Source: Cymodocea nodosa
Taxonomy: Eukaryota > Streptophyta > Magnoliopsida > Alismatales > Cymodoceaceae
NCBI GenBank assembly: GCA_036874045.1
Contig: JAZBRI010000008.1
Span: 7,021,001-7,085,000 of the forward strand
DNA length: 64,000 bases
Direction of reading: 5' to 3'
Below are positions 16,698 through 59,931 of this stretch, piece by piece. The notes below the pieces were generated by a model. It did no database searches, was not told the origin of the DNA, and worked only from the letters and a program-made list of their open reading frames with translations. The stretch's first letter is position 1; the number at the start of each line of letters is the position of its first letter. The position numbers were made by a program, and so were the translations under genes.

Positions 16698-17561
16698 ATG
16701 ATTGAAGGACAGAGTACTACTTGTCCTCCTATGTTTGAAGTTAGCAATTATGGCTACTGGAAATATAGGATGAAAGTATTCTTCTAGTCAATTGATTTCA
16801 AATTATAACATATAATTAGTAATCCCATAATGTTAGTTACGACTCCATATAATATTTGGACTTTTAATGAAATGGAGTGAATGACATTGAATGCTAAAGG
16901 TTTAAACATCTTATTTTATGCTTTATCACATGATCAATTTAATAAAGTTTCTGCATACGAGATGTGACATACATTAGAAGTTGCATGAAAGTACTAACTA
17001 AGTTAAAGAATCTAAGATTAATATGTTAGTACATAAATATGAGCTTTTTAAAATGCATGAAAATGAATGTATCTCTAACATGTTTTTCCATTTTATTGAG
17101 ATTGTAAATTTCTTAAAATTTTTAGGCAAGAAATTTAAGAAAAAAGACTTGGTAAAAAGATCCTTAGACTTTGACTAAAATTTAGGCTCAAAAGACAACG
17201 TCTATTGAAGAGTTTAAAGATTTAAATACATATATTTTGGATAATCTCATAGGAAATCTGATAGCCTATGAAGTACAACATTTAGATTCAAAAGAGAAGA
17301 ATCCTAGAAGAGATTTGGCTTTTAAGGCTGATAAAGTCTCAGAAGTCATTAGTGATTCTAATGATGATTTACTTTTGTTGACCATAAAATTTAGATATCT
17401 GTTGAAGAAATGTAGGAACTTCAGGTCAGTAAAGACATTTAGAGATATGGAGAAGAAGTCATTTCTGAAGGACAAAATCATATGTTACAAGTGCAATAGG
17501 CCAGGTAACTTTCAAATTGATTATTCTCTCAACAAAAGTAAGAAGAATTCTAGAAGAAACT
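16698..17561 (+). pseudogene. gag of element B, 5' part
   Basis: From ATG 16698 the frame reads YGYWKYRMKVFF, TPYNIWTFNEME, NAKGLNILFYALS, matching the gag of element A (EYWKYRMTVFL, TPYNTWTITEKE, NAKGLNILFCTLS). Several TAG/TAA/TGA stops and frame changes break it. The zinc knuckle CYKCNRPGNFQIDY has lost its His and last Cys (CCHC to C-C-N-Y), so nucleic-acid binding would be gone. It stops at the insertion point of element A. Confidence 0.85.
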
Positions 17562-17840
17562 TGTTGAGTATTTTTGTTTTGATGATGTGTGCTGAATGAA
17601 AGTAATCATATTTCCTCAATTACTATTGCTTGTGAAAAGAAATTAAAATCATCAATTAATACAGAAAAAGTTTACTGATATAAATACTTGTCTCTATTAG
17701 ATCTGAAGTTAATAACTAGTCGTTTCGTTGCATTAATTTCTCATTTAGCTAAACGTTAAGTTAACGTGTGTTTTTATTGAAAAACATGATATGTTTTAAT
17801 GTTATATCTTCTGTATCATGAACAGTGCACGTTTAGACAA

Positions 17841-18310
17841 CTCGTTAAGTTAGAGTTTTGTTTGTATAGAGGTCACGTGAGAACTCGTTAAGTTAGAGGC
17901 CTAAAGGTTAAAATAGGTCACGTGATAACTCATTAAGTTAGTGAGTAAAAGAAGAGATGAACTCGTTAAGTTAGTGTTATACACGTGGTGAAATTATAAG
18001 TTATGAATGTTGTATTGTATCACGTGAGGTGCACATGTTTAACTCGTTAAGTTAACATAACTAAACGCGTTGAGTTGCTATATTGAACACTAAGGCAACA
18101 CGTTAGGTTAGCGTTATAAACTTAAGTTGTTATTTTTGCACGTGGTAAAATTCTTATTATAAAAACATTTGTTTATTACTGGTTCGTTGAGTTATCATAA
18201 CACAACGGAGATGGTTCGTTGAGTTATCATAACACAACGGAGATGGTTCGTTGAGATAGCATAACACCACGAACTTAGTTCGTTGAGTTAGCTACAGTAC
18301 TTGTCACGTG
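17841..18310 (+). promoter_or_regulatory. U3 array of CACGTG boxes and CTCGTTAAGTTA repeats
   Basis: Perfect CACGTG palindromes at 17874, 17919, 17982, 18021, 18139 and 18305, alternating with CTCGTTAAGTTA at 17841, 17884, 17962 and 18043 (and CTCATTAAGTTA near 17933), then three GGTTCGTTGAGTTA-type units (18182-18255). CACGTG is the plant G-box core bound by bZIP and bHLH factors and part of ABA-response elements. All lie 300-770 bases upstream of the TATA box. The 3' LTR keeps the same six boxes. Confidence 0.75.
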
Positions 18311-18607
18311 AAATGGCACATGAGGAACTCGTTAAGTTAGAAACGTTAAGTTATATATATACTTGTGTTACTCGTTTAGTTAACATTAAAGTAACGACTT
18401 CTTATTACACTAATAAAAAACTTTTGGACGAGAAAGTTTATTTTGCAGGAAATTTTTCAGAGATCCAAGACTGATGATTAAAGAAAATTCAAAATATAAA
18501 CGTGGGTTAGAATGTGTGTGTTTCGATGAAGGAAAAAGGAAAGACGTGGAGAAGTGGAAAACTGGTAGTGGTTAAACGTGAATGATATGCATGAAATGAA
18601 GATACAG

Positions 18608-18615
18608 TATAAAAG
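18608..18615 (+). promoter_or_regulatory. TATA box of the element-A LTR
   Basis: TATAAAAG in CAGTATAAAAGGCATAGAATT, identical in the 3' LTR (29483-29490) and in A' (54825-54832). Good plant TATA consensus. Confidence 0.75.
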
Positions 18616-19175
18616 GCATAGAATTCTCGTTGATCAATTTATCCTTGCACACAAAACGAAAAATCTTTTCAAGGATCAAACCATCCCTGCACATCAAAAG
18701 AAAAATCTTTTTCAGGGATCAAAAACACCTTCTTGAGGAAAATCTCTCAAGTGGAAGAAAGTTCAATGAAGCATAAAAAGGTAAGATTTTTGTCACTGAA
18801 GATTTGAAGTATTAGAAGAAAGCAAATTCGGTGAAGCATGAAAAGACAAGATATTCGTCACTGAAGAATTGCTGAAGAAGAAAAGAAGAAGGAAAAAGAT
18901 CTCAAACTGGGAGAAAAGTTTTAAATTCCGCAAATTAGTTTTCTTTGTTTGTAGTTATGAAATTGTTTAGATGATACATGGTATCGAAATATAATTGCAT
19001 CTACAATTTCTGAGGAGAATTAAATTGTATATTATAATTGAAACCTTGAATAAAAATGATTTTATGAAAACAATGTCTCGACATGTTTTTGAGTTTTAAA
19101 GTTTAAATTATATTTCAGAAAATATTAAAGATACACAATTCACCCCCCTCTTGTGTAGCCATATAATCCTACAAG

Positions 19176-19187
19176 TGGTACCAAAGC
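19176..19187 (+). promoter_or_regulatory. Primer-binding site of element A (initiator Met tRNA)
   Basis: TGGTACCAAAGC two bases after the LTR end; the consensus TGGTATCAGAGC is changed at two places. Confidence 0.85.
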
Positions 19188-19374
19188 TTTCTTAATAATC
19201 TTTGATATAAAATCGATACCAACTTATTTAATATCATTGCTTATTCTACCTTCCTTGTTTTTAAACAGAAATTAATATCTAGCATACATTTAACTTTATT
19301 GATTTAAGGCTCAAGTTGTTTTAAAGTTTTTAGACTGTTTAAAATCAAATAGGTTGAAAAAAATCTAAGGTAAA

Positions 19375-22300
19375 ATGGCTACTGGAAATGGTAATTTTTC
19401 TTTATATGAAGGCCAAAATCTTAATCGTCCTCCTTTATTTGATGGAATACATTTTGAATATTGGAAATATAGGATGACTGTTTTTCTTCAAAGTATAGAT
19501 CATAAGTTGTGGTTCATGATTTCTAAACCATATACTCCGTTAACTACCCCTTATAATACTTGGACAATTACTGAAAAAGAAAATGAAACTCTGAATGCTA
19601 AGGGCTTAAATATTTTATTTTGTACATTGAGTTATGAACAGTTCAGTAAAGTGTCGGCATATAAATCTGCTTATGAGGTATGGCATGCATTAGAAGTTTT
19701 ACATGAAGGTACTTCTCAAGTTAAAGAGACAAAAATAAACATGTTGATTCATAAGTATGAACTCTTTAAGATGCATGAAGACGAAAATATTTTTGAGATG
19801 TTTTCTAGATTTCTTGATATCATAAACTCTTTAAAATGTTTAGGAAAGAATTTTGAACAGAAGGATTTGGTGAGGAAAATTCTCAGATCCCTAAGTTCTA
19901 AATGGTCTCAGAAAGTAACATCAATTGAGGAATCAAGAGATTTAAATGTTTATATTATGAATGAACTTATAGGAAATTTAACAGCTTATGAAGTTCAATT
20001 AAATGAATCACTGAGTTACAACAAACTAAAAGTGAAGAAAGAAATAGCCTTCGAAATTAATTCAGATTCTGATATATCTACTGATTCTAACAAGGATTTA
20101 ATTTTGCTGACTAGGAAATTCAAGAAAGCATGGAAAGCTAGGAAACAGCAAAGGAACAAAAATGATAAACCCTCAACGTTAAAATCATTGAATGACAAGA
20201 ATTCTTCATCCAGAAAGTATGTATGTTACAACTGTAAGAAACCTAGACATCTTTCTCCAGATTGTCCTATGAGGAAAAATGAAAAGCAAAGTAGGACAAA
20301 TCAGAAGAAGATGGCTCAGAAAACTCAGAAAAAGTTTTACAAGAAAAAGGCTTTGAAGGTCACTTGGGATGACACGTCTAAAGAGTTTGAATCTGAGGAA
20401 TTAGCATCAAAATCTTCACATTCAGAAGGAGAACAAGAGTTAGAAGACGTTGCTCATGTGTGCTTCATGGCAGATGAGTCTGAGGAGGAAACAACATCAA
20501 AATGGATCTTGGACAGTAGAGCGTCAAGTCACATGACCGGACAAAAAAGTCTATTACAAAATTTTACAAATACCATGAAAGGAAGTGTAACATTTGGAAA
20601 CAAAAGCAAAGATAAAATCATAGGTATGGGCAATGTTCAAATAACTCCTACTTGTGTTATTTCGAATGTACTATATGTAGAAAACCTAGGATTTAATTTG
20701 CTGAGTGTCATAAAACTAACTGAAAATGGATATTATATAGTGTTTGAAGATAATGTATGCAAAATAATTGATAAAAATACAGATGAAATTAAATTTATTG
20801 CTAAAAGAAAAGGTTCTGTATGTATTTTATCTTTACCTTCTGGTGTAGTTGATTTAAATTCATGTTTGCTAGTTGAAACTAGTGATGCATATCTATGGCA
20901 TAAAAGGATTGGACATATAAATATGAGACTATTACATAAACTATCTAGAAAACATTTAGTGAGAGGTTTACCAAAGATTAAATACTTAAAGAACTTTATG
21001 TGTGATGCATGTGAGTTAGGTAAACTTCACAAAAACTCTTTTAAATCCAAAACTGATATTTCAAGCAAGAGAGTCTTAGAACTTACATATATGGATCTAT
21101 TTGGACCAACAAGAATCATGAGTCTTGGTGGTAAACGGTATGTATTTGTTTTAGTAGATGACTTCTCTAAATACACTTGGGTATATTTTCTAGCATCTAA
21201 GACAGAAGTTTTTGAAAAATTTAAAATGTTTTGCAATTTTGTTCAAAATGAGCAAAGTGTCTCTATTCAAAAACTTAGGAGTAATCATGGAACTAAATTT
21301 GATAATGATCAAATGGATAACTATTGTAATGAGCATGACATTGATCACAGATTTTCTTTTCCAAGAGCACCGTGTCAAAATGGTGTTGTTGAGAGAAAGA
21401 ATAGATCACTTCAAGAAATGGCTAGAACTATGTTGAATGAACATAAGTTACCTCAAAATCTTTGGGCTGAAGTAGTAAATACAACTTGTTATGTTATTAA
21501 CAGAAGTCATTTAAGACCTCATGTTAATAAAACTCCTTTTGCAATTATGTTTAATAGGGTTCCAAAAATTTCCTATATGAAACCATTTGGCTGCAAGTGT
21601 TTTATTCTTAATACTAAGGATAAAAAGGATAAATTTCAAGCCAAATCGGATGAAGGAATTTTTGTAGGTTACTCTACTAGAAGTAAAGCCTATAGAGTAT
21701 ATAACAAGACTTCTAGGACTATTGAAGAAACCCTCCATGTAAGCTTCAATGAAAATTCTCTTAGAGAATCTCAATCTAAAGCTGATAATGATGATATGAT
21801 CAATTTTCCAAATGAGTTAGAGATCAATAGAGAGATTGATGATTTATCTGAGAAAATCAAAAATATGAACTTAAATGATCAAACTAATGATGAAAGTGAT
21901 GGACTTTCAGATGTTGATGAGAATATTGAGGAAAATCAGAGAAATTGGCGTTATTCTTCATCACATCCCATTACTTAAGTCATTGCTAATATTAATGAGG
22001 GAGTTAAAACTAGAGCTTTAGTAAATTTAAATAGTATGTGTATGTTTGTTTCTATGATGGAACCAAGGAATATACAAGAAGCATTATCTAATGAAAATTG
22101 GATAGTGACAATGCAAGAAGAACTAAATCAATTCATCAGAAATGATGTATGGGAATTAGTTTCTCCACTAGAAAATTAGTCCATAATAGGTACAAAGTGG
22201 ATCTTTAGAAACAAAACTAATGAAACTGGTCAAATTATAAGGAATAAAGCTAGATTAGTTGCACAAAGGTATACACAGGAAAAAGGATTAGATTATGATG

Positions 22301-23592
22301 AAATATTTGCTCCTGCGGCTAGGTTAGAAAGTATTAGAATATTATTGGCCTATGCTTGTTATATGGATTTTAAATTATATCAAATGGACGTAAAGAGTGC
22401 ATTTCTAAATGGTTTAATTAATGAAAAAGTCTATGTAAAACAACCACCTGGATTTGAAGATATTAAAAATCCTGACTTTGTGTATAAATTGAAGAAAGCC
22501 TTATATGGTTTGAAGTAAGCACCTGGATCATGGTATGAAAGATTGTCTACTTTTTTAATAGAAAAAGGCTATATTATGGGAAAAGTGGATCATACTCTAT
22601 TTATTAAGAGAGATGGTAAAGATCAGATTGTTGTTCAAATATACGTAGATGATATAATCTTTGGAGCAACCTGTGATAAGTTGATAGAAATATTCTCTGA
22701 AGAGATAACTAATCAGTTTGAAATGAGTATGATAGGAGAACTTTCATATTTTCTAGGACTTCAAATTAAGCAAATGGATAAAGGTATATTTTTAAATCAG
22801 GAAAAATATGCAGTTGAAATGCTTAAGAAATTTAATTTTAATGATACAAGGATTTGAGGAACTCCTATGAGTACTACTTTAAAGTTAGATATTGATGACA
22901 TAGGAAAATCTATAGATCAAAGAAAATACAGAAGTATGATTGGTTCTTTACTTTATTTGACTGCTAGTAGACCTGATATTATGTTTGCTGTGTGTGTTTG
23001 TGCTAGATTTCAATCTAATCCTAAAGAATCACACTTAATTGCAGTTAAAAGAATATTTAGATATATACAAGGAACTAAAAATTTCAGACTGTATTATTCT
23101 AAGGATAGTTCAATAGATCTTATAGGATATACTGATGCTGATTATGCAGGATCTAAATCTGATAGAAAGAGTACCAATGGCACATGTCAATTATTGGGAA
23201 ATAATTTGGTGTCATGGTTTAGTAAAAAGCAAAACTGTGTAGCACTTTCTACTACAGAAGCTGAATATGTTGCTGCTGCACTGTGTTGCACTCAGATTCT
23301 GTGGATAAGGCAAACTTTAGAAGATTTTGGATTATCTTATGATACAACTAAGATTTATTGTGACAGTAGTTCTGTAATAAATCTTTCTAAAAATCCTGTA
23401 TTACATTCAAGAGCAAAGCATATAGAGGTTAGACATCATTTTCTAAGAGATAACGTAATTAAAGGATAAATTAAATTAGAATTTGTGTCTAGTAAAAATC
23501 AATTAGCTAATATATTTACAAAACCTCTAGACGAAAATACATTATGCAACATTAGATTAAATTTAGGTATTTGTAGGCTATGTGATGTGTAA
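19375..23592 (+). pseudogene. gag-pol of element A (Gag, protease, integrase, RT, RNase H)
   Basis: One frame of 1406 codons from ATG 19375, open for 867 residues to TAA 21976 and then broken by TAG 22177, TAA 22516, TGA 22855 and TAA 23467. Gag about 1-280; zinc knuckle C284-C287-H292-C297 intact. Protease signature at 380 is DSR instead of DSG. Integrase has the HHCC finger near WHKRIGH...CDACELGK, then D574, N637 (normally Asp) and E673 with the exact 35-residue spacing, so the second catalytic acid is lost. RT has YVDD (22642-22653); RNase H ends with HIEVRHHFLRD. Order PR-IN-RT-RH is copia. Sister copy A' retains the normal DSG and the normal integrase Asp. The gag-protease junction lacks 1161 bp present in A'. 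Confidence 0.95.
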
Positions 23593-25171
23593 AATGCTTA
23601 AACTCCACATAAAAAGATAAATATTATTGATGATGTTGTTTACCTCATAGATATTATATACTTATTATAAATATCTAAAGTAATATCTAAACTGCTGCTT
23701 AAGATACTATGTATTTATTGCAAAATCATAGTAGTATCTTATTGATTTTAAGTAGTTTATCAATTTTAATAGTTTTTACGATTTTAAGTGGAAGTGTAAA
23801 TGAAAAACATTAAATACTTCTGACATTTTGAAATTTTGATTAAATGTTTTCTTTGAATCAAGGAAAATGCATATGATCATGCATAAATTTGACTTAATTG
23901 ATTAAACTTGTAGAATAAGTTATATGTAACTCATCTTAAACTATTAATCAAACGTATAAGCTTATTGAAACTGATTCATATTCTTAGTACAATCATAGAA
24001 GTAAAAATTGTATGAGATTTGTGTTTTATTGCATCTGTATTAATGGAATACATATATACTGTGCTTAAAATGAAAAGTGCTTAAAAAGTAAAAATCTTTG
24101 AGAGTTTATTAATAGTTTGATCATGAGCCTTTTGTACTTGAGTAGATAGGTATGCAAGGATTGTTGTCCTCAAAAAGGATTCTTTAAATCTGGCAACCTA
24201 AGGTCCTGATCAGATATGGGATTGTTGACTGAAAGCTCATTACATGGGTACATTAGAAAGCTCTTGTATGATTCAAACTTTTCAAACTAACTTTTAAAGA
24301 AAATTGTCAATATTTACTATTTTTGAAAAGAAAAAGTTGTTTCATTAATTACAGATATCTTTAAATCGCATATAGTTTATACCAATATGACTACTGATTT
24401 ATTGAATCAACATTAGTACTTTTGAAAACGTTTATTTGAGATACATTCTTTTATTCTCCTTGAATTAATCGAATTGAGTTCAAAGTTGTGTTTTGATTTA
24501 TATACAGTAGGAATTGAATCTGGAAATCATTTTTGATGATGTCAGAATAACGGAAGTCTCTGAAAAGAAAATGTAAAAGTATAGTTATACTTAACATCTA
24601 TTGTCACTACAAGTATATTTTGTATTTTGATTGACTATATTTGAAGTATATTTGTAGGGGGAGGATTAACAATGTCGAAAACAGATTAATATAATTTAGA
24701 ATACAAATCTTAGTTAATCTAAATTAATGTCCTCTTAAAATCTTGATGAAATAATTTAAAAAGACAAATAAACTATTTTAGATTCAAAGTTCAAATAGTT
24801 TACAATGTTCTCAAGATAATGTTAAGTTTAGCATGTGTGTTGTTTTCGGAACGTTTCAGTTGGAAGCATCCGAAAATTGTTTTAAGTGTACTAATTAGAC
24901 GTTATGTTAGATAAGATAGCGTGTAAAACTACCTCTAGACAGCGTTTTACTCGTTAGGTTAGTTAACTCAACGAGTTATACTTGAATATTTCAGGTAGTT
25001 TGATTGAATAAGCTTTATTCAATATTTATTTTATTTCTAAAGCCGACTTCTCTTCACGTTGAGTTATACGCCTAAAAACCCTATTTAAACACTTATTACA
25101 CGGGCACTTAGGTTATTTGTAAACTTTGTCAAGAAAATCTTTCCCGCTTGTTGCTGTTACAACCTACGACG
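23593..25171 (+). other. Spacer between pol and post-pol ORF of element A
   Basis: Non-coding. 23880-24670 is related to 840-1990 near the left edge. A purine tract TTTGTAGGGGGAGGATT at 24651-24667 resembles an internal plus-strand primer site. After it come CTCGTTAGGTTAG / CTCAACGAGTTA repeats like those in the LTR (24951-24976), and a leader with CCCTATTTAAACACTTATTACACG (25078-25101) just before the ORF start, which could hold a promoter (TATTTAAA). Confidence 0.55.
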
Positions 25172-25816
25172 ATGGTCTCCAAGTTCTACAAAGGTCGTGG
25201 CAGAGGAAAAGGCAAAAGCAGAAGATATGCAAAAGGAAAAGAAATAGAGAATGATGAAGTTCCACGTACTTGGTTCAAGAAAATATTTTGAGTGGACAAA
25301 AGGTTAGAAGAACTTTATAGAGATTACTTCTTTTCTCAAGATATATTAGATGAAGTTAGACAAGAACTTCAACATACTGATGCAAGTATTACATACATGG
25401 GTATTCGAAGTAAATATGATAGAGAATATAGAATGAAATGTGCTAAGATTGCATTTTTGGAACAGTATGCAAAATATTTGGAAAAATGTGTAGGTTCATC
25501 AAATAGAACTCCTCAAACTCCTATAAACGGTACAAGACTACATGCATTTGAGGAAGAGCATGAATCAGCTATTCCTACTCCTTTATATTTAAAACAAGTA
25601 GAATCAGATATTGCTGTAGACAAAACAAAAGTTGACATTCTTCGACAGGCCGTTGCAATAGAAAGTGCCTTAGAAGAATTAAAGCAGAAAACTTTTATAG
25701 AGCAATTTGAAAAGAAAACAGCAATACTTGAAAAGGAGAAACAAAATTGTTATAGAAGAAGGAAAGTCAGAAAAATTATGTCTAAGGAAACAAAGTCTAT
25801 TGAAATTAAATTATGA
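25172..25816 (+). pseudogene. N-terminal part of the post-pol ORF of element A
   Basis: ATG 25172 opens a basic, Arg/Gly/Lys-rich start (FYKGRGRGKGKSRRYAKGKE), interrupted by one TGA at 25289 that replaces a Trp-like position, then continues as an alpha-helical, coiled-coil-rich stretch (LEELYRDYFFSQDILDEVRQ, QTFIEQFEKK-like repeats) to 25806. The basic start could bind nucleic acid or serve as a nuclear signal (inference). The remainder of the ORF is not downstream but inverted at 28349-26400. Function unknown; such third ORFs in SIRE-type elements have been called envelope-like, but I see no signal peptide or membrane segment. Confidence 0.75.
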
Positions 25817-26002
25817 TTTTAATTTCTTTTCACAAGCAATAGTAATTGAGGAAATATGATTATTTTCATTCAGCACACATTATCAAAAGAAAAATACTCA
25901 ACAATCTCCCCCTTTTTGATGATGACAAAACCATATTAAATTAATTATAAAATATGTTTAACTCAACAAAGCACCTTCGTTGGGTTAACTTTTAATTCAA
26001 CA
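25807..26002 (-). repeat. Inverted copy of LTR start, polypurine tract and upstream bases
   Basis: The reverse complement of 25814-26002 equals 28351-28527 with few changes: it holds the first 90 bases of the LTR (TGTTGAGTATTTTTC), the purine tract AAAAAGGGGGAGAT and the adjoining 80 bases. It therefore forms the B' arm of the A-B'-X'-A'-B rearrangement. Confidence 0.9.
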
Positions 26003-26399
26003 AACTTGTTTGTTGACTTAAGTTCACTTAAGCTTATTTCTATTGTTTGTGTAAATTTTACCTCTCAGAACTAAAACTCTCAGATGTCAATAATTATATA
26101 AGTATCAGTTTTCTAATTATCATCTGTCAGATTACAATAACCATTTAAATAGCATCTCCTTTTATAATATATATATGCAATTAAGATCATAATCATCTTT
26201 TTATAATATTTCTCCCCCTTTTTGTCATTAATCAAAAAGATAATTACAGAGAATATATATATGTATATAAGAGAATTACAACAACAATTTCTATAAACAA
26301 GAATAATAATTGAACACATTTACAGAAAAATGTATTGTTCAATGAATCAAACAAGTAATACAAACATTACATTTTGTATTCAGAAACAAACAAAAACAG

Positions 26400-28349
26400 T
26401 TATCGACCCCTCCTAAGTATATAACTTATAGCATTACATATTTTATCTCCTAGATGCCTAATATCATTTCTGATGTCGTTAAGCACTGCATGTAAGTCGG
26501 GAGGTAGCTGGGTTTGTTGTTCTGCTTGAACTGAATATCTTTGTTGTTGTTGTTGTATATGGTCTGTATCAGGTTGTTGTTGTTGTTGTCGTTGAGGTTT
26601 ATGCATGGCTTGGAATTTTTGCAAATCTTTGACACTAAATGCTCTCATGCCTTTAGTTTCAGAGGGCCAGTTGGATAAATTCAATTGGCTTGCAATGAGT
26701 CTACATACAGCATCACCATAAAATAACCTTGAACTCATATGCTGTAGTTGAGAAGTGAAAACATCAAACCAATTGATTTGAATTCTATTCAGCAAGCTAT
26801 AAGTTGCATATAAACAACTTCTGCTGACTTCCATATTGTGTCCAACTCTCTGAAATAAATTTGCATGCAATATATTTGCAATAAACCTTGCCTCTGCATT
26901 CAGATTTTCCATTAATCTCATTTCAGAATATACATCTGGAACTTTTGATAAAGACTGAATGTTCCATTCTAGTTGTCTTATTATGTCAAATCTGTTGGTA
27001 ACAACAACACCTTCATTCTTTAATCCTAAAACTTCAAAAATTAACTCAGGAGACAATATAAACTCCTGTTCATTTATTTGAGTTTTCAGAAAATTTCCAT
27101 TCTTGACCAGATTGCTATAAAAAGTTGTAATAAGCTGTGTATTGCTTCCATTTCGTTCCTACTGGCAAGAATTTAATGAGGCCTTGAAACTCAAACAGAT
27201 CTCTTATTTCCATCAAATTTTTGAATTTTATTGGACGAGCATGCAGAATCTGACATGTAATCAGATTATTGTATTTATGCAATGCTTCTTCAGATCTAAA
27301 ATGAATTGCATTACCTTGAATTTTTAATATTGTACACAAAGAAGGTGATACCTGAAGCTGTGATTCAAAGTTTAATTCATCTTCAGGAACCTCTTCTTCA
27401 AAATGAATGTCATGTTGTTCATCTTCCAAAATATTATCTTGAAGCTGCTCAGGTAAGCTTGATTCTTCAACTTCAACAGTGTTAGGAACATTGTCAATAT
27501 GCTCAACATTCATCTATTCAGTCTCTATAGAATGTTCAGATTTCAATTTTTCCACAAATTCTATAGCCGGTGTATCTGTCTGTAATTGTTCATTTTGTTC
27601 AACAGATATTTCCATTGATTCATGCTGTGAATTCTCAGACTCTACTTCTATAGATTCCGTAGAAGGCTAGTTAACTTTTAGCTCTTCTAGAGTCTTAACA
27701 TTTTCAATATCTACTACTCTAGACAATTCAGCCTTTGAACTAGTTACTGCCTCAACATTATCAATTATATCTGCAATAACTTGTTCAATGTCAGGTGCCT
27801 GATGCTCTGATTTGTCAATTTCTGCATCATCAGGACTTGTACTAATAGAAAAAAAACTTGAGCTCATATTTGACTTGGATTTCTTCTCAAGTTTTCTAGC
27901 AAGGGAAAATAAAGTCTCATTATCTTCATCAGTTTCAGTGTGTTCGGAACTGATGAGTTTATCAGATGCATAGTAAGGTACAATGTCTAGACATACATTG
28001 TCCTTTGGAAATAAACTTTCATCTGATTTTCCTTTTTCAATAGACTTTGTTTCCTTAGACATAATTTTTCTAACTTTCCTTCTTCTATAACATTTTTGTT
28101 TCTCCTTTTCAAGTATTGCTGCTTTCTTTTCAAATTGCTCCATAAAAGTTTTCTGCTTTAATTCTTCTAAGGCACTTTCTATTGCAATGGCCTGTCGAAG
28201 ACTGTCAACTTTTGTTTTGTCTACAGCAATATCTAATTCTACTTGTTTTGAATATAAAGGAGTAGGGATAGCTGATTCATGCTCTTCCTCAAATGCATGT
28301 AGTCTTGTATCGTTTATAGGAGTTTGAGGAGTTCTATTTGATGAATTAA
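26400..28349 (-). pseudogene. Inverted segment carrying the rest of the post-pol ORF
   Basis: Read on the minus strand from 28349: a second copy of the segment at 25490-25806 (TPQTPIN...KSIE), then acidic Ser/Glu-rich sequence, then the conserved block EIRDLFEFQGLIKFLP (about 27200), LSPELIFEVLGLKNEGV, ARFIANILHANL, CLYATYSLLNRIQINW and LFYGDAVCRLIASQ, a Gln-rich linker (26520-26600) and the C-terminus at 26400. Stops at 27664 and 27514 and a one-base shift near 27113 break it. It resembles, from memory, the plant-transposon domain seen in other post-pol ORFs. 26003-26399 is its 3' untranslated region. The whole lies in reverse within element A. Confidence 0.85.
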
Positions 28350-28423
28350 AAGTTAACCCAATGAAGGTGCTTTGTTGAGTTAAACATATTTTATAATTGA
28401 TTTAATATGGTTTTGTCATCATC

Positions 28424-28437
28424 AAAAAGGGGGAGAT
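28424..28437 (+). promoter_or_regulatory. Polypurine tract of element A
   Basis: AAAAAGGGGGAGAT directly before the 3' LTR. Confidence 0.92.
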
Positions 28438-30049
28438 TGTTGAGTATTTTTGTTTTGATGATGTGTGCTGAATGAAAATAATCATATTTCCTCAATTACT
28501 ATTGCTTGTGAAAAGAAATTAAAATCATCAATTAATACAGAAAAAGCTTACTGATATAAATACTTGTCTGTATTGGATCTGAAGTTAATAACTAGTCATT
28601 TCGTTGCATTAATTTCTCATTTAGCTAAACATTAAGTTAACGTGTGTTTTTATTGAAAGCATGATATGTTTTAATGTTATATCTTCTGTATCATGAGCAG
28701 TGCACATTTAGACAACTCGTTAAGTTAGAGTTTTGTTTGTATAGAGGTCACGTGAGAACTCGTTAAGTTAGAGGCTTAAAGGTTAAAATAGGTCACGTGA
28801 TAACTCGTTAAGTTAGTGAGTAAAAGAAGAGACGAACTCGTTAAGTTAGTATTATACACGTGGTGAAATTATAAGTTACAAATGTTGTATTGTATCACGT
28901 GAGGTGCACATGTTTAACTCGTTAAGTTAACATAACTAAACGCGTTGAGTTGCTATATTGAACACTAAGTCAACGCGTTAGGTTAACGTTATAAACTTAA
29001 GTTGTTATTTTTGCACGTGGTAAAATTCTTATTATAAAAACATTTGTTTATTACTAGTTCATTGAGTTATCATAACACAATGGAGATGGTTCGTTGAGTT
29101 ATCATAATACAACAGAGATGGTTCATTGAGATAGCATAACACCACAGACTTAGTTCGTTGAGTTAGCTACAGTACTTGTCACGTGAAATGGCACATGCGG
29201 AACTCGTTAAGTTAGAAACGTTAAGTTATATATATACTTGTGTTACTCGTTTAGTTAACATTAAAGTAACGACTTCTTATTACACTGATGAAAAACTTTT
29301 GGACAAGAAAGTTTATTTTGCAGGAAATTTTTCAGAGATCCAAGACTGATGATTAAAGAAAATTCAAAATATAAACGTGGGTTAGAACGTGTGTGTTTCG
29401 ATGAAAGAAAAAGGAAAGACGTGGAGAAGTGGAAAACTGGTAGTGGTTAAACGTGAAGGATATGCATGAAATAAAGATACAGTATAAAAGGCATAGAATT
29501 CTCGTTGATCAATTTATCCTTGCACACAAAACGAAAAATCTTTTCAAAGATCAAACCATCCCTGCACACCAAAAGAAAAATCTTTTTGAAGGATCAAAAA
29601 CACCTTCTCGAGGAAAATCTCTCAAGTGGAAGAAAGTTTAGTGAAGCATAAAAAGGTAAGATTTTCGTCACTGAAGATTTGAAGTACCAGAAGAAAGCAA
29701 ATTCGATGAAGCATGAAAAGACAAGATATTCGTCATTGAAGAATTGCTGAAGAAGAAAAAGAAGAAGAAGAAAGATCTCAAACAGGGAGAAAAATTTTAA
29801 ATTCCGCAAATTAGTTTTCTCTGTTTGTAGTTATGAAATTGTTTAGATGATACATGGTATTGAAATATAATTGCATCTACAATTTCTGAGGAGAATTGAA
29901 TTTTATATTGTAATTGAAACCTTGAATAAAAATGATTTTATGAAAACAATGTCTCGACTTGTTTTTGAGTTTTAAAGTTTCAATTATATTTCAAAAAATA
30001 TTAAAGATACACAATTCACCCCCCTCTTGTGTAGCCATATGATCCTACA
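28438..30049 (+). repeat. 3' LTR of element A
   Basis: Same length (1612 bp), ends and TATA box as the 5' LTR. All six CACGTG boxes are kept. Differences from the 5' LTR are mostly A/G and C/T. Confidence 0.95.
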
Positions 30050-33000
30050 AAACTTCAGAAAAAAGAAGTTCAAAAAGAGAATGGCACTAAAAGTGACATG
30101 GGATGACTCTTCCTCTTCACAAAGTGAAGAAACAAAGGATTCAACATCAAATAGTGAATCCTCATCAAGATCAAATTCAAAATAAAATCTTACAAACATG
30201 TGCTTTATGGAAAATTCTAGTGAGATATGTTTTAATCTTAATGCTAGTTATGATAGTTTTGATAGATTATTTGTTGAATACAATAAACTAGCTAAAAAAT
30301 ACAAGAGAGTAAAATCAAAAGGAAAGAACACTAGAGAAATGCTACATGAATCTGAAAATAAGATTGATTTTCTAAATTCTATGTTGAATAAATTTAAAGA
30401 AGAAAATCAGAAGCATGCATAGGAAATTTTAAAGTTTATTGTAATAGAAAAAGACTTGCATGTTGATCGTGAAAATTTAATTGCTGATAAGAAGAAAATG
30501 ATTTGTGAAGTTGAAAAATTGAATCTAACTATTACTAATTTAAATTCAGAAATTGATATGTTAAAAATTAAGGTTTGTGATAAAAAAGCTACCTTAAGTA
30601 AATGGAATAATAGTTAGACGATAACAAATGAACTTAGTAGTAAAATATCAAATGTAGAAAAACATAGTATTGGATTACATAATGCATCTTCTGAAAATTA
30701 TACATTACATGATAGTACTTCTAAAAATAATGCTTTTGTTTCTAGTACAAAGAATAGAAAAAGAAAGACTATTCCGTGTGTAATTAGAAAAGGAGAAAAA
30801 TATGTACAAGTAGATAAAATATAGCACATAGATAAAAACACACGATGCAAAAGCCTCAAAAGAAATTTTCAGAAAAATCATGCTAAGTCATTTGAAAAGA
30901 GGGATTTTAATATTTTTGATTAGTTTTCTTTATATTTAAGAAATATTGTATATTGGAATCAACAATTAAATAATGTCAGAAATAAAAATTTTAACTCTAT
31001 TATACATAGAAATAAGTGTTCTGATAATTATAACACTAAGAGTAATAAATGTAGGAATAATTATTAGAAAATAAATAAGTTGAAATTTAAAAATATTGAT
31101 TATCATGATATGACTTCCTCTAAAATTCTTAGACCCACTTAGGAATGGGTTACAAGAAATAAAATCTCTTCTTAACTATTTTGTAGGTACACAAATCAAA
31201 ATGGATAATAGATAGTGGAGCATCCAACCACATGATTGGAGATATATGATTCTTACAAAAGTAATAAAGATCAAGAACGGACAAGTTACCTTTGGAAATA
31301 AAAGTAAAACAAAAATCCTTGGATCTAACAAGGTTCAAGTAATTGAAAAATATTTTATTAATGATGTCTTATTAGTAAAAAACTTAGGTTTTAATTTATT
31401 AAGTGTTCTTGTCTTAATGAAATTTTACAAAGTGAGTTTTGAAAAAGATTCTTGTAAAATTATAGACATGCATACAAACAAAATTTTATTTACTGCATAT
31501 AAGAAATGATCCGTTTATATTCTAAATTTGCCTTCTGATATTGTCAGAGATAGTGCTTGCTTAATTTTAAAATCAAATAAAGTTATATTATGGCATAGAA
31601 GGCTAGGTCACTCAAACCTAAAGTTATTACAAAAGCTGTCTAAAAGAATTTAGTTAGAGGTTTACTTAATATTAATTACTCAAAAGAGTTCATGTGTGAT
31701 GTATGTCAATTAGGTAAATAATATAAAACATCCTTTAGAACTTTAAATGAAACAACAAGTAAAAGAGTATTAGTAGTGCATATGGATTTATTTGGACCTA
31801 TTAGGACAACCAGTCTAGGAGGTAAACATTATGTTTTTGTACTAGTTGATGATTATTCTAGGTTTACTTGGGTTTATTTTCTAGCTAATAAAACTGAAGT
31901 TTTTGAAATATTTAAAGTATTTTGTAATAAAGTTCAAAATGAGCAAAATGTTAAAATTCAAAAACTTAGGAGTGATCATGGTACAAAATTTGATAATGAT
32001 CAAATGAACACCTTTTGTGAAGAATTAGGCATAGATCATAGGTATTCATTTTCAAGAGCACCTTCACAAAATAGGATGGTAGAATGGAAAAATAGATCAC
32101 TTCAGGAAATGTCTAGAACCATGTTAAATGAAAATAAGTCACCCTTATTTCTCTAGGAAGAAGTAGTTCATACAACATGTTATGTTATAAATAGGGTACA
32201 TTTAAGACCATTTTGGATAAAAATCCTTATGAGATATGGTATAACAAGGTTCCCAAAATCAGTTATTTAAAACTCTTTGGCTACAAATGTTTTATATTAA
32301 ACACTAAGGAACATAGAGACAAATTTAGAGCCAAATCAGAGGAGGGTATTTTTGTTGGTTATTCTATAAGAAGTAAAACATATAGAGTATATAATAAATC
32401 AACAAAAATCATTGAGAAAACCTTACATGTTAAATTTCATGAAAATTCTCATTTGGATTTTAGACATATTGAACATATTGATTTAGAAATTCACCAAGCA
32501 GAATCAAATGATGTTAGAGAAATTGAGAGATTATCTGATGGACTAAGAAATATAAACTTGAATGATGAAGATTTAGAAGAAAATAATGTCATGCTTATAG
32601 AAAATGTGGAACATCATAGAAATTGACGTTATGCTTCATCTTATCCTATTGATCAAATAATAGGCGATCCTAATCAAGGAGTTAGGACTAAGTCATCAGT
32701 AGTCAACATTTATGGTGCTTATTCATTTGTTTCTTTACTAAAACCTAAGAAAATTGAAGGTGCCTTAGAAGATGAATTTTGGTTTTTAGCTATGCAAGAT
32801 GAGCTAAATCAATTTATAAGAAATGAGGTATGAGATCTAGTTCCACCCCTTGAAAATTAGTTTGTAATAGGAACAAGGTGGGTATTTAGAAACAAAGTAG
32901 ATCAAGATAGATAAATAGTTAAAAATAAAGCTATGTTACTGCTCAAGATTACAAGCAAGAGAAAAGAATTGACTATGATGAAACATTTGCTCTTGTTGCT

Positions 33001-34272
33001 ACATTAGAATCAATACGAATTTTGTTAGTATATTCTTATTACGTGGATTTCAAATTATATCAAATAGATGTTAAGATTGCTTTTTTAAATGGATATATAA
33101 AAGAAGAAGTTTATGTAAAATAACCTCTAGGTTTTGAAGATTTAAAACATCCCAAGTATGTTTACAAGCTTAAAAAGGCACTATATGGCCTTAAACAAGC
33201 CCTTAGGTCTTGGTATGAGAGGTTATCTAAATTTCTTGTAGAAAAATGGTATTCTATGGGAAAGGTAGATCATACCCTCTTTATCAAGAAAGTTGAAAAT
33301 GATATATTGGTAGTTCAAATCTATGTAGATGACATTATATTTGGAGCAACAAATGAAAAATTAGTTGAGTCTTTTTTGAATGACATGACTAATTAATTTG
33401 AAATGAGTATGATGAGTGAACTATCATTTTTTCTAGGCTTATAAATTAAGCAATTAGAAAAGGGAACGTTTATCTCACAAGAAAAATATACTTGAGATTT
33501 ATTAAAGAGGTTTGGACTAGACAACACTAAAATGAAAAATACCCCAATGAGTACTATCACTAAGTTGGATAAAGATGACTCTAGAAAATCTGCAGATATA
33601 AAACAATATAGAAGTATAATTGGTTCATTACTTTATTTAATAGCTAGCCATCTAGATATTATGTTTAGTATGTGTACTTATGCTAGATATCAATCAAATC
33701 CTAAAGAGTCACACCTACTTGTTGTTAAAAGAATTTTTAAATATCTATTAGGAACTGTCAATTTCGAATTGTTTTACTTTAAACACAGTTCTTTAAATTT
33801 AATAGGTTATAGTGATGCTGATTTCGTAAGGTATAAGTCTAAAAGAAAAAGTACTAGTGGCACTTGTCAATTATTAGGAAATTCCTTAGTGTTATGGTTT
33901 AGCAAAAAGCAAAATTATGTAGCATTATCTACAATAGAAGTTGAATGTATAGTTGCTACACTTTGTTGTGCTCAAATCTTGTGGATCAGACAAACTTTAA
34001 AAGATTTTAATTTAACCTATGGACCAATTAAGATTTTTTGTGATAGTAGTTTTGTAATAAGTTTGTCTAAACATCTTGTTTTATACTCATGAGCTAAACA
34101 TATAGAAGTTAGACATCATTTTCTAAGGGATAATGTAATAAAAGGAAAAATAGCATTAAATTTTGTTCCAACCACAAAACAATTAGCTGATTTATTCACA
34201 AAACCCTTAGATGAAAATGCTTTTTCAAAATTACGATTAGAACTTGGTATCTGTAGGTTATCTAATGTTTAA
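30050..34272 (+). pseudogene. Rest of gag-pol of element B
   Basis: Starts in the basic KKRMALKVTWDD segment, followed by NMCFMENSS and a coiled-coil spacer (30204-31000, several stops), ending TCTTCTTAAC then TATTTTGTAG before the protease. Protease: WIIDSGASNHM (31200) with DSG intact. Integrase: MDLFGP, RSDHGTKF, MVEWKN - all three acids present - but with stops at 32156 and elsewhere. RT from about 32740 with YVDD near 33325 and multiple TAG/TAA stops; RNase H includes DADF, CDSSFV; pol ends at TAA 34270-34272 in LGICRLSNV. Copia order, SIRE lineage, thoroughly inactive. Confidence 0.9.
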
Positions 34273-34890
34273 ATTATCTTGTTCATTACATAATATTTTA
34301 ATTTGTTAAAAAGGAGTTTAGAATTTAATTTCTTTATATTAGAAAAACTCAAAATATCTACTTTGGAATTATGTTTATTGGTAGTTAAGAACTTATGAAA
34401 TTCTGATTTTTATTGAAGTCAATTTATTTAAAGAAATATTTAGAAAAGGTTACTTGAGGAAAGTTAATTTGATTCAATATAAATACCAACTATATTTTTG
34501 TTATTATGTATACACTTTTATAGAGATTTTAACTAGAAAATACATAGAAAATATGTACAGTTTATAAAAGAAAGTTATTAACATTCTGTTAGAAAAATTA
34601 GATCTTGAGGTTGCCTTTTATTTTATTTATTGTCTAAATTTTATTTGGATCTGAAATTACTTGAGTAATTAAGTCTGTTGGAAGATCTTAAACCCTAGTC
34701 ACTTAAACCAATTGGTTTGGGATGTGCTGACTAAAAACTCATTATACAAGTAATTCAGATTATACTTTAAAAAAAAAAAGGTTACCTATTTCACTTACCA
34801 TTGAGTAACTGGTTATCTTTCCCTTAAGCAAGGGATTGTGATCATGTAAAAAGATGATACTATGGGAGGTAACAAAAAAAAAAGGGGTAA
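34273..34890 (+). other. Post-pol spacer of element B
   Basis: Non-coding A/T-rich sequence with A-runs (34768-34779, 34873-34882). The phrase GGGATGTGCTGACTAAAAACTCATTA resembles the element-A spacer block GGGATTGTTGACTGAAAGCTCATTA. No post-pol ORF is recognisable. Confidence 0.55.
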
Positions 34891-54832: not shown

Positions 54833-55613
54833 GCATAGAATTCTCGTTGATCAGTTATCCCTACACACCAAACGAAAAATCTTTTTAGGGATCAAAAACA
54901 CCTCTTCGGGGAAAAACTCTTAAGTGGAAGAAAATTCAGTGAAGTAGAAAAAGGTAAGATATATGTCACTAAAGATTGAAAGTATCAGATGGAACAAAAT
55001 TCAGTGAAGTAGAAAAGGTTAGATTTATGTCATTGAAGATTTAAAGTATCAGAAGAAAGCAAATTCGGTGAAGTAGAGAAAGAATAGAAATTTATCATTG
55101 AAGAATTGCTGAAGAAGAAAGAGAAGAAGAAGAAGAAGAAAGATCTCAAACAGGGAGAAATGTTTTAAATTCCGTAAATTAGTTTTCTCTATTTGTAGTT
55201 ATGAAATTGTATAGATGAAACATGGTATTGATATATAATTGCATCTACAATTTCTGAGGAGAATTGAATTGTATATTGTAATTGAAACCTTGAATAAAAA
55301 TGATTTTATGAAAACAGTGTCTTGACTTGTTTTTGAGTTTTAAAGTTTCAATTATAAGCGAAAATGTTGAAAAACACAATTCACCCTCCTCTTGTGTAGC
55401 CATACGATCCTACAAGTGCTATTAGAGCTTTGTTAATAATCTTTGATATAAAATCGATACCAACTTATTTAATATCATTACTTATTCTACCTTCCTTGTT
55501 TTTAAACAGAAGTTAATATCTGAGCATACGTTTAACTTTCTTGATTTAAGGCTCAAGTTGTTTTAAAGTTTTAAACTGTTTAAAATCAAATAGGTTGAAA
55601 AATCTAAGGTAAG

Positions 55614-57871
55614 ATGACTACTGGAAATGGTAATTTTTCTTTGTATGAAGGCTAAAATCTTAATCGTCCTCCTTTATTTGATGGAATACATTTTGAATAT
55701 TGGAAATATAGGATGATATTTTTTCTTCAAAGTATAGATCATAAGTTGTGGTTCATGATTTTTAAGCCATATACTCCGTTAACTACTCCTTATAATACTT
55801 GGACAATTACTAAAAAAGAAAATGAGACTCTGAATGCTAAGGGCTTAAATATTTTATTTTGTGCATTAAGTTATGAACAGTTCAGTAAAGTGTCGTCATA
55901 TAAATTTGCTTATGAGGTGTGGCATGCATTAGAAGTTTCACATGAAGGTACTTCTCAAGTTAAAGAGACTAAGATAAACATGTTCATTCATAAGTATGAA
56001 CTCTTTAAGATGCATGAAGACGAAAGTATTTCTGAGATGTTTTCCAGATTTCTTGATATCATAAACTCTTTAAAATGCTTAGGAAAGAATTTCGAATAGA
56101 AGGATTTGGTGAGGAAAATTCTCAGATCCCTAAGTTCTAAATGGTCTCAGAAAATAACATCAATTGAGGAATCACGAGATTTAAATGTTTATACCATGAA
56201 TGAACTTATAGGTAACTTAACTGCTTATGAAGTTCAATTAAATGAATCACTGAGTCACAACAAACTAAAATGAAGAAAGAAATAGCCTTCGAAATTAATT
56301 TAGATTTTGATATATCTACTGATTCTGATGAGGATTTGATTTTGCTGACTAGGAAATTCAAGAAAGCATGGAAAGCTAGGAAACAACAAAGGAACAAAAA
56401 TGATAAACCCTCAACGTCAAAATCACTAAATGATAAGAATTCTTCATCCAGAAAGTATGTATGTTACAACTGTAAGAAACTTGGACATCTTTCTCTAGAT
56501 TGTGCTATAAGGAAAAATAAAAAGCATAGTAGGACAAATAAGAAGAAGACGGCTCAAAAAACTTAGAAAAAGTTTTACAAGAAAAAGGCTTTGAAGGTCA
56601 CTTGGGATGACACGTTTGAAGAGTCTGAATTTGAGGAATCATCATCAAAATCTTCACATTTAGAAGGAGAACCAGAGTTAGAAGACGTTGCTCATGTGTG
56701 CTTCATGGCAAATGAGTCTAAGGTAATATCTAATCTTGAAAGTCATTTAGATTTTAACTTTGATGAATTATTATGTGCTTATCATATATTATTACAAAAA
56801 CTTAAAGTTTGTAAATTGGAAAATAAGAATATCAGAAACTCTTTATCCATTGTGGAAGAAGAAAATTGTTTCCTATCTACTACTTTAGAAAAGTTTAAAT
56901 GTGATAATGAAAATCATGCTAGAGATTTGCATAAATTTAGATTTAATGAATGTGTCTTGCATGAACAAATACAGAATACTAATGTTGAAAAATTAAAGAT
57001 AGAATCTGAAAATGAAATATTGAGAAAAAATATAAATGATCTTGAGGTAGAGATTGATAAATTAAAAATGAGAGAGCTAGATTTAAATTCTACCATTGAG
57101 AAATGGAATTTAAGTCAAACTAAGTTAGACAAACTAACTAGTACCCTTGCGATGCCATATAAATATGGCTTAGGATTTGATTATCCTGAATATCCTGAAT
57201 CTCAAGCCAATAAAGGATTTGTTAGTTGTAGTTCAAGTAAATCTAAGACTAAAATTCCTTTTATCATGAAACAAGGTAATAAATATGTAGAAGTAGGTAC
57301 TTCAAGGGATGAATCATGTAGTAATAATATAAATCAATGTGATTTGTCTAAATGTACTTCTAACATAACTATTAATGTTTCAAAAAATCTTGTTTCTTGT
57401 TTTGGAAATTCAGTTTCTAATGTTTCTAAAATTTCAGACAATTGTAGTAAACTGAAAATTTAGAAACCTAATCATGCAATTCAAAACACTAGTGTTAGAC
57501 CAATTACTGGTTCTGCATGTTCTTTATCTAGAAATTCTTATGTAGAAAAAGATTTTGTATGTACTGAAAATGTTAATACAAGTACAAAATCTTGGTATGA
57601 ATTTACTAAAATGTATGAGCATGACCAAAATAAATTAAAATCTGATAAAAATTGGTTTGGTCTTGGTTGTACTACATCTGAAAACAAAAAGAATGATTAT
57701 AAGAGCAATAATGCTATAAGTAAGTATGATGCTAGTGATAAGTCAATAGTACTTACAACTAATAAGAATGTAAATGATAATGTTAAATTATTTTTAAACA
57801 AAAAGAAGAAATATGCGTTTAATGAACTTGGTCCTCAACAACATTGGGTACCAAGAAAGAGTTTTTCTTAA
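55614..57871 (+). pseudogene. gag of element A' with coiled-coil spacer
   Basis: ATG 55614 to TAA 57869-57871. N-terminal capsid-like region as in element A; stop codons at 55650, 56098 and 56565 replace Gln; a one-base loss near 56270 shifts frame. Zinc knuckle CYNCKKLGHLSLDC (56462) is intact. 56591-57463 is open for 290 residues and contains a long coiled coil (KLKIESENEILRKNINDLEVEIDKL) after VCFMANES. The frame ends HWVPRKSFS and TAA, ten bases before the TGTAG that precedes protease. The segment 56723-57883 is exactly the part missing from element A. Confidence 0.9.
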
Positions 57872-57883
57872 TTTGTTTTGTAG
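56723..57883 (+). other. Candidate intron: GT-AG segment absent from element A
   Basis: 1161 bp, a multiple of three. The left border AAG/GTAATA is a good donor; the right border TTTTTCTTAATTTGTTTTGTAG/GAG is a strong pyrimidine-rich acceptor. Element A is joined exactly there (20484/20485, GAGTCTGAG/GAGGAAACA). Retained, the RNA would end translation at TAA 57869 (Gag); removed, Gag would run in frame into protease. AGG at both borders leaves a three-base ambiguity, so a microhomology deletion is the alternative. Confidence 0.55.
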
Positions 57884-59931
57884 GAGGAAACAACATCAAA
57901 ATGGATCTTGGACAGTGGAGCATCAAGTCACATGACCGAACACAAAAGTCTACTAAAAAATTTTACAAATACCACAAAAGGAAGTGTAACATTTGGAAAC
58001 AAAAGTAATGATAAAATCATAGGTATGGGTTCAAATAACTCCGACTTGTGTTATTTCGAATGTACTATATGTAGAAAACCTAGGATTTAATTTGCTGAGT
58101 GTTATAAAACTAACTGAGAATGGATATTATGTAGTGTTTGAAGATAATGTATGCAAAATTATTGATAAAAATATAGATGAACTTAAGTTTATTGCTAAAA
58201 GAAAAGGTTCTGTATGTATTTTATCTTTACCTTCTAGTGCAGTTGATTTAAATTCATGTTTGCTAGTTGAAACTAGTGATGCATATCTGTGGCATAGAAG
58301 GATCGGGCATATAAATATGAAACTATTACATAAACTGTCTAGAAAACATTTAGTGAGAGGTTTACCAAAGATTAAATACTCAAAGGACTTTAAGTGTGAT
58401 GCATGTGAGTTAGGTAAACTTCACAAAAACTCTTTTAAATCCAAAACTAATATATCAAGCAAGAGAGTCTTAGAACTTATACATATGGATCTATTTGGAC
58501 CAACAAGAATCATGAGTCTTGGTGGTAAACGGTATGTATTTGTTTTAGTAGATGACTTCTCTAGATACACTTGGGTATATTTTCTAGCATTTAAGATAGA
58601 ACTTTTTGAAAAGTTTAAAATATTTTGCAATCTTATTCAAAATGAACAAAGTGTCTCTTTTCAAAAACTTAGGAGTGATCATGGTACGGAATTTGATAAT
58701 GATCAAATGGATAATTATTGTAAAGAGCATGGCATTGATCATAATTTTTCTGTCCTAAGAGCACCGTCTCAAAATGGTGTTGTTGAGAGAAAGAATAGAT
58801 CACTTCAGGAAATAGCTAGAACTATGTTGAATGAACATAAGTTACCTCAAAATCTTTAGGCTGAAGTAGTGAATACAACTTGTTATGTTATTAACAGAAG
58901 TCACTTAAGACCTCGTGTTAATAAAACTCCTTTTAAAATTATGTTTAATAGGGTTCCAAAAATTTCCTATATGAAACCATTTGGCTGCAAGTGTTTTATT
59001 CTTAATACTAAGGATAAAAGGGATAAATTTCAAGCCAAAGCGGATGAAGGAATTTTTGTAGGTTACTCTACTAGAAGTAAAACCTATAGAGTATATAACA
59101 AGACTTTTAGAACTATTGAAGAAACCCTACATGTAAGCTTCAATGAAAATTCTTTTAGAAAATCTCAATCTAAAGTTGATAATAATGATTTGATCAATTT
59201 CTCAAAAGAGTTAGAGATCAATAGAGAGATTGAAGATTTATTTGAGAAAATCAAAAATATGAACTTAAATGATCAAACTAATGATTAAAGTGATGGACTT
59301 CTAGATGTTGATGAGAATATTGAGGAAAATCATAGAAATTGGCGTTATTCTTCATCACATCCCATTACTCAAGTCATTGGTAATGAGAGAGTTAAAACTA
59401 GAGCTTCAGTTAACTTAAATAGTATGTGTATGTTTGTTTCTATGGTGGAACCAAGGAATATAGAAGAAGCATTATCTAATGAAAATAGGATAGTGGCAAT
59501 GCAAGAAGAACTAAATCAATTCATTGGAAATGATGTTTGGGAATTAGTCTCTCCACTAGAAAATCAATTCATAATAGGTACAAAGTGGATCTTTAGAAAC
59601 AAAACTAATGAGATCGGTCAAGTTATAAGAAACAAAGCTAGATTAGTTGCATAAGGGTATACACAGGAAGGACTAGATTATGATGAAACATTTGCTCCTG
59701 TGGCTAAGTTAGAAAGTATTAGAATATTATTGGCCTATGCTTGTTAAATCGATTTTAAATTATATCAAATGGATGTAAAGAGTGCATTTCTAAATGGTTT
59801 AATTAATGAAGAAGTCTATGTAAAACAACCACCTAGATTTGAAGATATTAAAAATCTTGACTTTGTGTATAAATTGAAGAAAACCTTATATGGTTTAAAG
59901 CAAGCACCTAGATCATGGTATGAAAGGTTAT
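57884..59931 (+). pseudogene. pol of element A' (protease, integrase, RT), truncated
   Basis: Protease WILDSGASSHMTE keeps DSG. A five-base loss near 58027 shifts frame. Integrase, open 58092-58859, has WHRRIGH...CDACELGK, MDLFGP, RSDHGTEF and VVERKN, so finger and all three catalytic acids are present, then TAG at 58857. RT from 59424: [31 protein letters not shown], and then stops at the E LTR before YVDD. TAA at 59286, 59652 and 59743 are further breaks. Confidence 0.92.

Follow-up and report, generated by a model that had tools for sequence, protein, structure and literature searches.

Two related retrotransposon copies lie on the forward strand of the window, that is, the whole 64,000-nucleotide stretch of Cymodocea nodosa DNA that was analysed, and one of them, A, lacks a piece of 1161 bp that the other, A', has kept. 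How was this piece lost, and what is it? The answer that we favor, with a probability of roughly 0.84, is alternative splicing: the segment would be a spliceosomal intron in the gag of a Sirevirus element of the Ty1/copia kind, such that unspliced RNA would give Gag and spliced RNA would give Gag-Pol.

The segment that separates the two copies

Element A is a complete LTR retrotransposon (17562–30049). Its 5' LTR (17562–19173) is 96.2% identical over 1615 columns, with 59 mismatches, to positions 28437–30050, which hold the 3' LTR (28438–30049), and the sequence reads AAACT on both sides as a 5-bp target duplication (left 17557–17561, right 30050–30054). Because A is complete with LTRs and duplication, it arrived by retrotransposition, and the LTR divergence dates it to about 1.4 million years at a plant rate of 1.3e-8 substitutions per site per year. 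Retrotran_gag_2, Pol_BBD, gag_pre-integrs, rve and SH3_retrovirus score above the Pfam cut-off in A, with zf-CCHC below it, and open frames resembling reverse transcriptase (RT) and RNase H were read by eye at 22543–23469, after the integrase. Judged by this order, in which Gag, CCHC knuckle, protease and integrase precede RT and RNase H, A is a Ty1/copia element. A stretch that crosses the start of its 3' LTR is present in inverted copies, about 96.5–97% identical, at 25495–26004 and 28035–28536.

The putative exon 1 of A (19375–20484) encodes Gag with its CCHC knuckle up to VCFMADESE, and the putative exon 2 (20485–21978) encodes protease and the integrase part of the open frame. They meet at the seamless junction TCTGAG/GAGGAAAC (20484/20485; here and below the slash marks the break), inside an unbroken frame of 867 amino acids (19375–21978). 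The earlier note had stated that Gag-Pol forms one frame once the segment is absent; this holds from Gag through the integrase region but not through all of Pol.

Element A' begins near 53784 and can be aligned with A up to about 59926. Its exon 1, from the gag start codon to the candidate donor (55614–56722), is decayed and frame-shifted, as seen by tblastn with pieces of A; its exon 2, from protease onward (57884–59926), is decayed and broken off near 59926, as seen by alignment to A and tblastn. Reading and aligning A at 20100–20900 with A' at 56500–58200 confirmed that the 1161 bp at 56723–57883 are exactly absent from A, between left flanks that are 92.3% identical (A 18752–20485, A' 54990–56723) and right flanks that are 93.3% identical (A 20483–22541, A' 57882–59926). 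A 3-bp microhomology, AGG, allows four equivalent registers of the break, and only the register 56723–57883, the one given in the earlier note, is bounded by GT and AG.

The candidate intron thus has GT-AG ends and a pyrimidine-rich acceptor, as expected of a spliceosomal intron, with the donor AAG/GTAATATC and the acceptor TTTGTTTTGTAG/GAGG. Between 54990 and 59926, this acceptor ranks first among 343 AGs and the donor, which lacks a G at +5, ranks eleventh among 258 GTs (tied with rank 10), ranks that depend on approximate plant weights. Positions 57864–57883 hold, besides the pyrimidine-rich tract and the acceptor, the branch-point-like TTCTTAAT, whose role we presume from the consensus. 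This stretch includes the Gag stop TAA (57869–57871); that codon and the TAG at 57881–57883 are in frame just before protease, in agreement with the earlier note. The AT content of the segment is modestly higher than that of its flanks (73.9% against 68.4% and 69.9%), as is its T content (34.0% against 30.9% and 31.8%). A donor-like AAG/GTAAG stands immediately 5' of the Gag start codon at 55606–55620 in A' (AAGGTAAGATG) and at about 19366–19380 in A (AAGGTAAAATGG); it ranks second among the 258 GTs, and a leader splice might be possible there.

The segment of A' translates from just after VCFMANESK to QQHWVPRKSFS, followed by the stop. That A' with its segment encodes Gag is correct in principle, but the copy itself carries an in-frame TAG at 57461–57463 and the first half of its gag is frame-shifted, being recovered by tblastn as two pieces.

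A homologous segment is present in a third element. A is inserted in the gag of a Sirevirus-like element C, whose gag start lies at 16698–17560 and whose remainder lies at 30055–34273; what had been described as a separate element B is the downstream half of C together with the 3' LTR of A. The segment of C (30225–31186, 962 bp) matches that of A' at 34% over 243 amino acids. Its donor has decayed to GAG/ATATGT, the same bases that had been reported for the supposed element B, and its acceptor reads TATTTTGTAG/GTAC. At the acceptor end, TCTTCTTAACTATTTTGTAG, 13 of 20 anchored positions equal those of A', against 3–10 of 20 in five 20-nt steps upstream. C is decayed, and its 962 bp are no multiple of three.

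The Gag tail and its junction in other plants

Aligned by eye with tail-bearing plant Gags that end in ...WVPK, the segment is the C-terminal tail of a Sirevirus Gag, and judged by this long tail after the knuckle the A/A' family belongs to the Sirevirus (SIRE) lineage. For the Sireviruses SIRE and Maximus, too, the Gag described has a single CCHC knuckle at its center and a long tail after it (PMC2829016). Protein searches returned 1 match among 278 candidates, 2103 matches (120 listed) and 371 matches (120 listed). Among the matches listed, 34 of 36 tail-bearing Gags of other plants have E-V or K-V, which corresponds to GAG/GT-like codons, at the donor point, the exceptions being P0175 and P0211. 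These 36 comprise 34 of 48 aligned rows plus P0158 and P0211; left aside were the two rows of the window (A' with K-V, C with E-I), ten tail-less Vitis models, P0055 (E-V, a near copy of P0048) and P0177 (E-F). In the P0148 group (nine rows), P0230, P0175 and P0211 the donor residues were read by eye, elsewhere by script; the script gave 23 distinct donor contexts with four mis-hits, and since several rows are near copies the independent cases number fewer than 36. In another Sirevirus family, the nine sequences P0148, P0149, P0151–P0155, P0157 and P0158, from jgi contigs, read CL(or YL)MAHGDEVTSK and then continue into the tail, five of them as far as the ...WVPK end. In the exception P0211, tail and Pol are in one unbroken frame without E-V, as expected if no splicing were needed, a single case.

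Two further proteins of the P0148 family among the matches listed, P0115 and P0122, read HGDE/VCLISKSTK[DN]KWFLDS in one frame, which at the level of protein sequence is a seamless fusion at the homologous point. P0115 comes from a 95-kb jgi contig (8 members) and is taken as genomic, because such annotation presumably ignores introns; P0122 comes from a 3.1-kb ena contig (4 members) and could be a transcript. On the acceptor side, Q (CAG or CAA) directly precedes the protease linker in 9 of the 21 listed Pol starts, as read by eye, the other 12 starting too late or being ambiguous. The same two points are joined in gene models from Fagus, Citrus, Vitis, Hevea, Manihot, Ulmus, Cuscuta, Cicer and others. 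We regard these as weak evidence, since predictors pick GT-AG pairs themselves and a different donor is taken in some models, such as P0018, P0054, P0160, P0163, P0166, P0171 and P0174.

No relatives of the A/A' lineage were found in viral contigs, prokaryote genome contigs, or plasmid and phage records. Among plasmid records the two best matches are NZ_CP115302.1 (5159 bp) and NZ_CP115454.1 (4649 bp), each with a copia-like polyprotein that matches 93–94% of the query at 34% identity; they were rejected as members of the lineage, being copia-like proteins of another kind, and are perhaps plant DNA carried along.

One loss or many in the host genome

The earlier note had proposed that A descends from a spliced genomic RNA, a proposal that would have suffered had A been the only copy with the deletion. 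This is not the case. A 33-letter pattern spanning the seamless junction, with at most three mismatches allowed, occurs at 191 places (95 + 96) in the 374.6-Mb host assembly, against 0 + 0 places for the reversed pattern; as the pattern fixes the junction, imprecise deletions would escape this count. A 401-bp query over the donor gave 2717 candidates, the best 40 of which were scored. We fetched 50 of the 191 seamless loci, each matching the pattern with zero mismatches, as well as 28 intron-bearing loci from among the 40 scored; one of the latter (L003) did not match the donor motif used and was dropped, leaving 27.

The donor of the intron-bearing copies reads [AG]AG/GTAATAT, and the acceptor is AG in 15 of the 18 copies in which both ends are readable. 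The remaining three (L053, L054 and L057) have CAA for CAG, possibly through decay of a methylated CHG site. The intron sequence has no match in any of the 50 fetched intronless loci. Whether intronless copies all break at the same two bases had been posed as a check: the gap at the junction is 0 in all 30 loci examined for it, and in part this follows from the construction of the pattern. TCTAAG and TCTGAG precede the junction in 9 and 21 of 30 intronless and in 11 and 16 of 27 intron-bearing copies, respectively; that both variants occur in both kinds of copy is a point in favor of splicing.

Because the tail is homologous across families, changes of state between the two kinds of copy are taken as losses. 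In a tree of exon 1 (67 reference-anchored rows, 44 intronless) we counted 12 changes, of which the starred branches force only one, and a single clade of intronless copies was rejected by the AU test (p=0.030); this tree supersedes a first one of 57 rows (11 changes, 4 of them forced by starred branches), whose false long branches stemmed from nested insertions. The exon 2 tree (61 rows, 44 intronless) has 13 changes, with one forced by starred branches, and p=4e-5 for one clade. With both exons joined (54 rows, 38 intronless), a quick tree has 11 changes and p=4e-39, a value perhaps inflated by conflicting exon histories; transversions only give p=9e-4. A careful tree of the same rows has 12 changes (9–12 over bootstraps that had not quite settled, with a single change in 0 of 200), at least three of which are forced by starred branches. 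Close to the junction, one clade is rejected by 500 bp on each side together (p=9e-5) and, on the exon 2 side alone, by its first 500 bp (p=5e-5); the 500 bp at the end of exon 1, taken alone, do not reject it (p=0.088).

In the careful tree, 26 of the 38 intronless rows form one clade (98/94) that includes A (L035). Elsewhere, starred clades mix the two states: the intronless L010 and L071 stand beside the intron-bearing L008 and L053 (100/99), and L021 and L025 beside L006, L039, L044, L047 and L057 (96/83). Raw distances give no separation: for the intronless copies that lie outside the big subfamily, the closest copy has the intron in 9 of 18 cases when exon 1 is compared and in 7 of 16 with exon 2. 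One copy, L062, is placed among intronless copies by exon 1 but among intron-bearing ones by exon 2, which makes some recombination likely. Two further comparisons were uninformative: for pN/pS of the segment relative to its flanks, wrong frames yielded ratios that were similar or lower, and the small deletions shared among copies are all single bases and decided nothing.

Based on these trees, intron loss has probably recurred, as splicing predicts: if spliced RNA is reverse-transcribed, exact loss between points that resemble splice sites should occur again and again. The descent of A from a spliced genomic RNA is thus supported by the 191 junctions, by the trees against a single origin and by the junction in P0115 and P0122. 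Most likely, A is not itself a first-generation copy of a spliced RNA but inherited the intronless state from the amplified subfamily.

Several observations count against this reading: the eleventh-ranked donor without a G at +5, the three CAA acceptors, the modest AT excess, the raw distances that do not separate the copies, and the trees of the single exons, in each of which starred branches force one change only. Three other explanations can be weighed against splicing. In the best of them, to which we give a small chance, a single chance deletion at AGG or a single jump of reverse transcriptase founded the intronless subfamily, and recombination between co-packaged RNAs spread the junction. 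The microhomology at the break, the concentration of intronless rows in one clade, the failure of exon 1 next to the junction to reject that clade and the shifting position of L062 are all compatible with such a history. However, among 121,709 random deletions in A', each with at least 3 bp of microhomology, only 0.96% have GT-AG ends in some register and 0.30% have them and are also in frame, and a chance deletion should seldom end at the best acceptor. Furthermore, exon 2 by itself rejects one clade, as do the two 500-bp flanks taken jointly, spread by recombination would need a tight double exchange each time, and neither the same junction in the P0115 family nor the E-V and K-V codons would be explained. 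It is considerably less probable still that AGG is a hot spot at which reverse transcriptase switched template repeatedly with no splicing involved. This would account for both recurrence and microhomology, but three shared bases should be common within 1.1 kb of AT-rich DNA, so that repeated choice of one pair seems unlikely, and the ends match both splice signals and the homologous point of another family whose bases differ. Finally, that A represents the older state and the segment is an insertion in A' has nothing in its favor beyond presence in one copy and absence in the other, and we reject it because element C and the Gags of many plants carry homologous tails.

Expression of Gag and Gag-Pol

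If the segment is an intron, unspliced RNA would give a Gag with a long C-terminal tail, stopping at the TAA 12 nt before the intron end, and splicing would link the codons that follow the zinc knuckle and the CFMA/CLMA motif to protease in phase 0, yielding a single Gag-Pol frame regardless of the frame in which the tail ends. The spliced RNA would retain both LTR ends and may sometimes be reverse-transcribed into exact intronless copies, one of which is proposed to have founded the amplified intronless subfamily to which A belongs. We infer splicing itself, its use for the expression of Pol and its bearing on the ratio of Gag to Gag-Pol from the DNA and protein sequences. Beyond this family, we lean towards the view that Gag-tail splicing is a general route of Pol expression in tail-bearing dicot Sireviruses, that the tail serves both as coding sequence and as intron, and that intronless subfamilies restricted to Gag-Pol parasitize the Gag of their intron-bearing relatives.

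In the open-licence literature we found no earlier report of splicing between Gag and Pol in Sireviruses. Foamy viruses also make Pol from a spliced RNA, as proposed here, although theirs is without Gag. In Sireviruses, which are abundant plant retrotransposons, pol is often in another frame than gag, and its expression has so far been ascribed to a proposed bypass or to internal entry, in the account given in PMC2829016, whereas here the tail intron would serve. The frame relation between the end of gag and pol would then not matter, which fits the variable frames of Sireviruses (PMC2829016). If Gag-Pol does arise by removal of a conserved intron, this would answer how Sireviruses express Pol and explain why the frames of gag and pol can vary freely.

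Ogre and EVADE are singled out in a 2025 review as notable exceptions among plants in having functional introns (PMC12786077). In Ogre, as proposed here, partial splicing merges two open reading frames into one polyprotein, but Ogre is a Ty3/gypsy element with its intron between protease and RT, whereas the present one lies inside gag (PMC6317226). Closer in position is the alternative splicing near the Gag-protease border that distinguishes Gag from Gag-Pol in BARE1, EVADE and Drosophila copia; there the spliced RNA gives Gag alone and the unspliced RNA gives Gag-Pol, the reverse of what we propose (PMC3735527, PMC8892269). If our reading is correct, the logic of copia, BARE and EVADE is reversed in Sireviruses, and a search for exact intronless copies would be a cheap test in any plant genome.

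Exact spliced copies left by retrotransposition of spliced RNA are also known as the SpIREs of human LINE-1, but SpIREs are generally dead ends (PMC5860796), whereas here the Gag-Pol frame is kept and one intronless subfamily has multiplied. Such a subfamily would yield Gag-Pol and no separate Gag and, speculatively, may depend on its relatives; BARE2 is said to rely on BARE1 (PMC3735527). Mean pairwise divergence is 3.6–4.0% among 32 copies around the big clade (a set drawn by hand), against 5.9–6.5% among the 27 intron-bearing copies. The intronless subfamily that includes A is therefore the less diverged of the two, which suggests that intronless elements kept moving.
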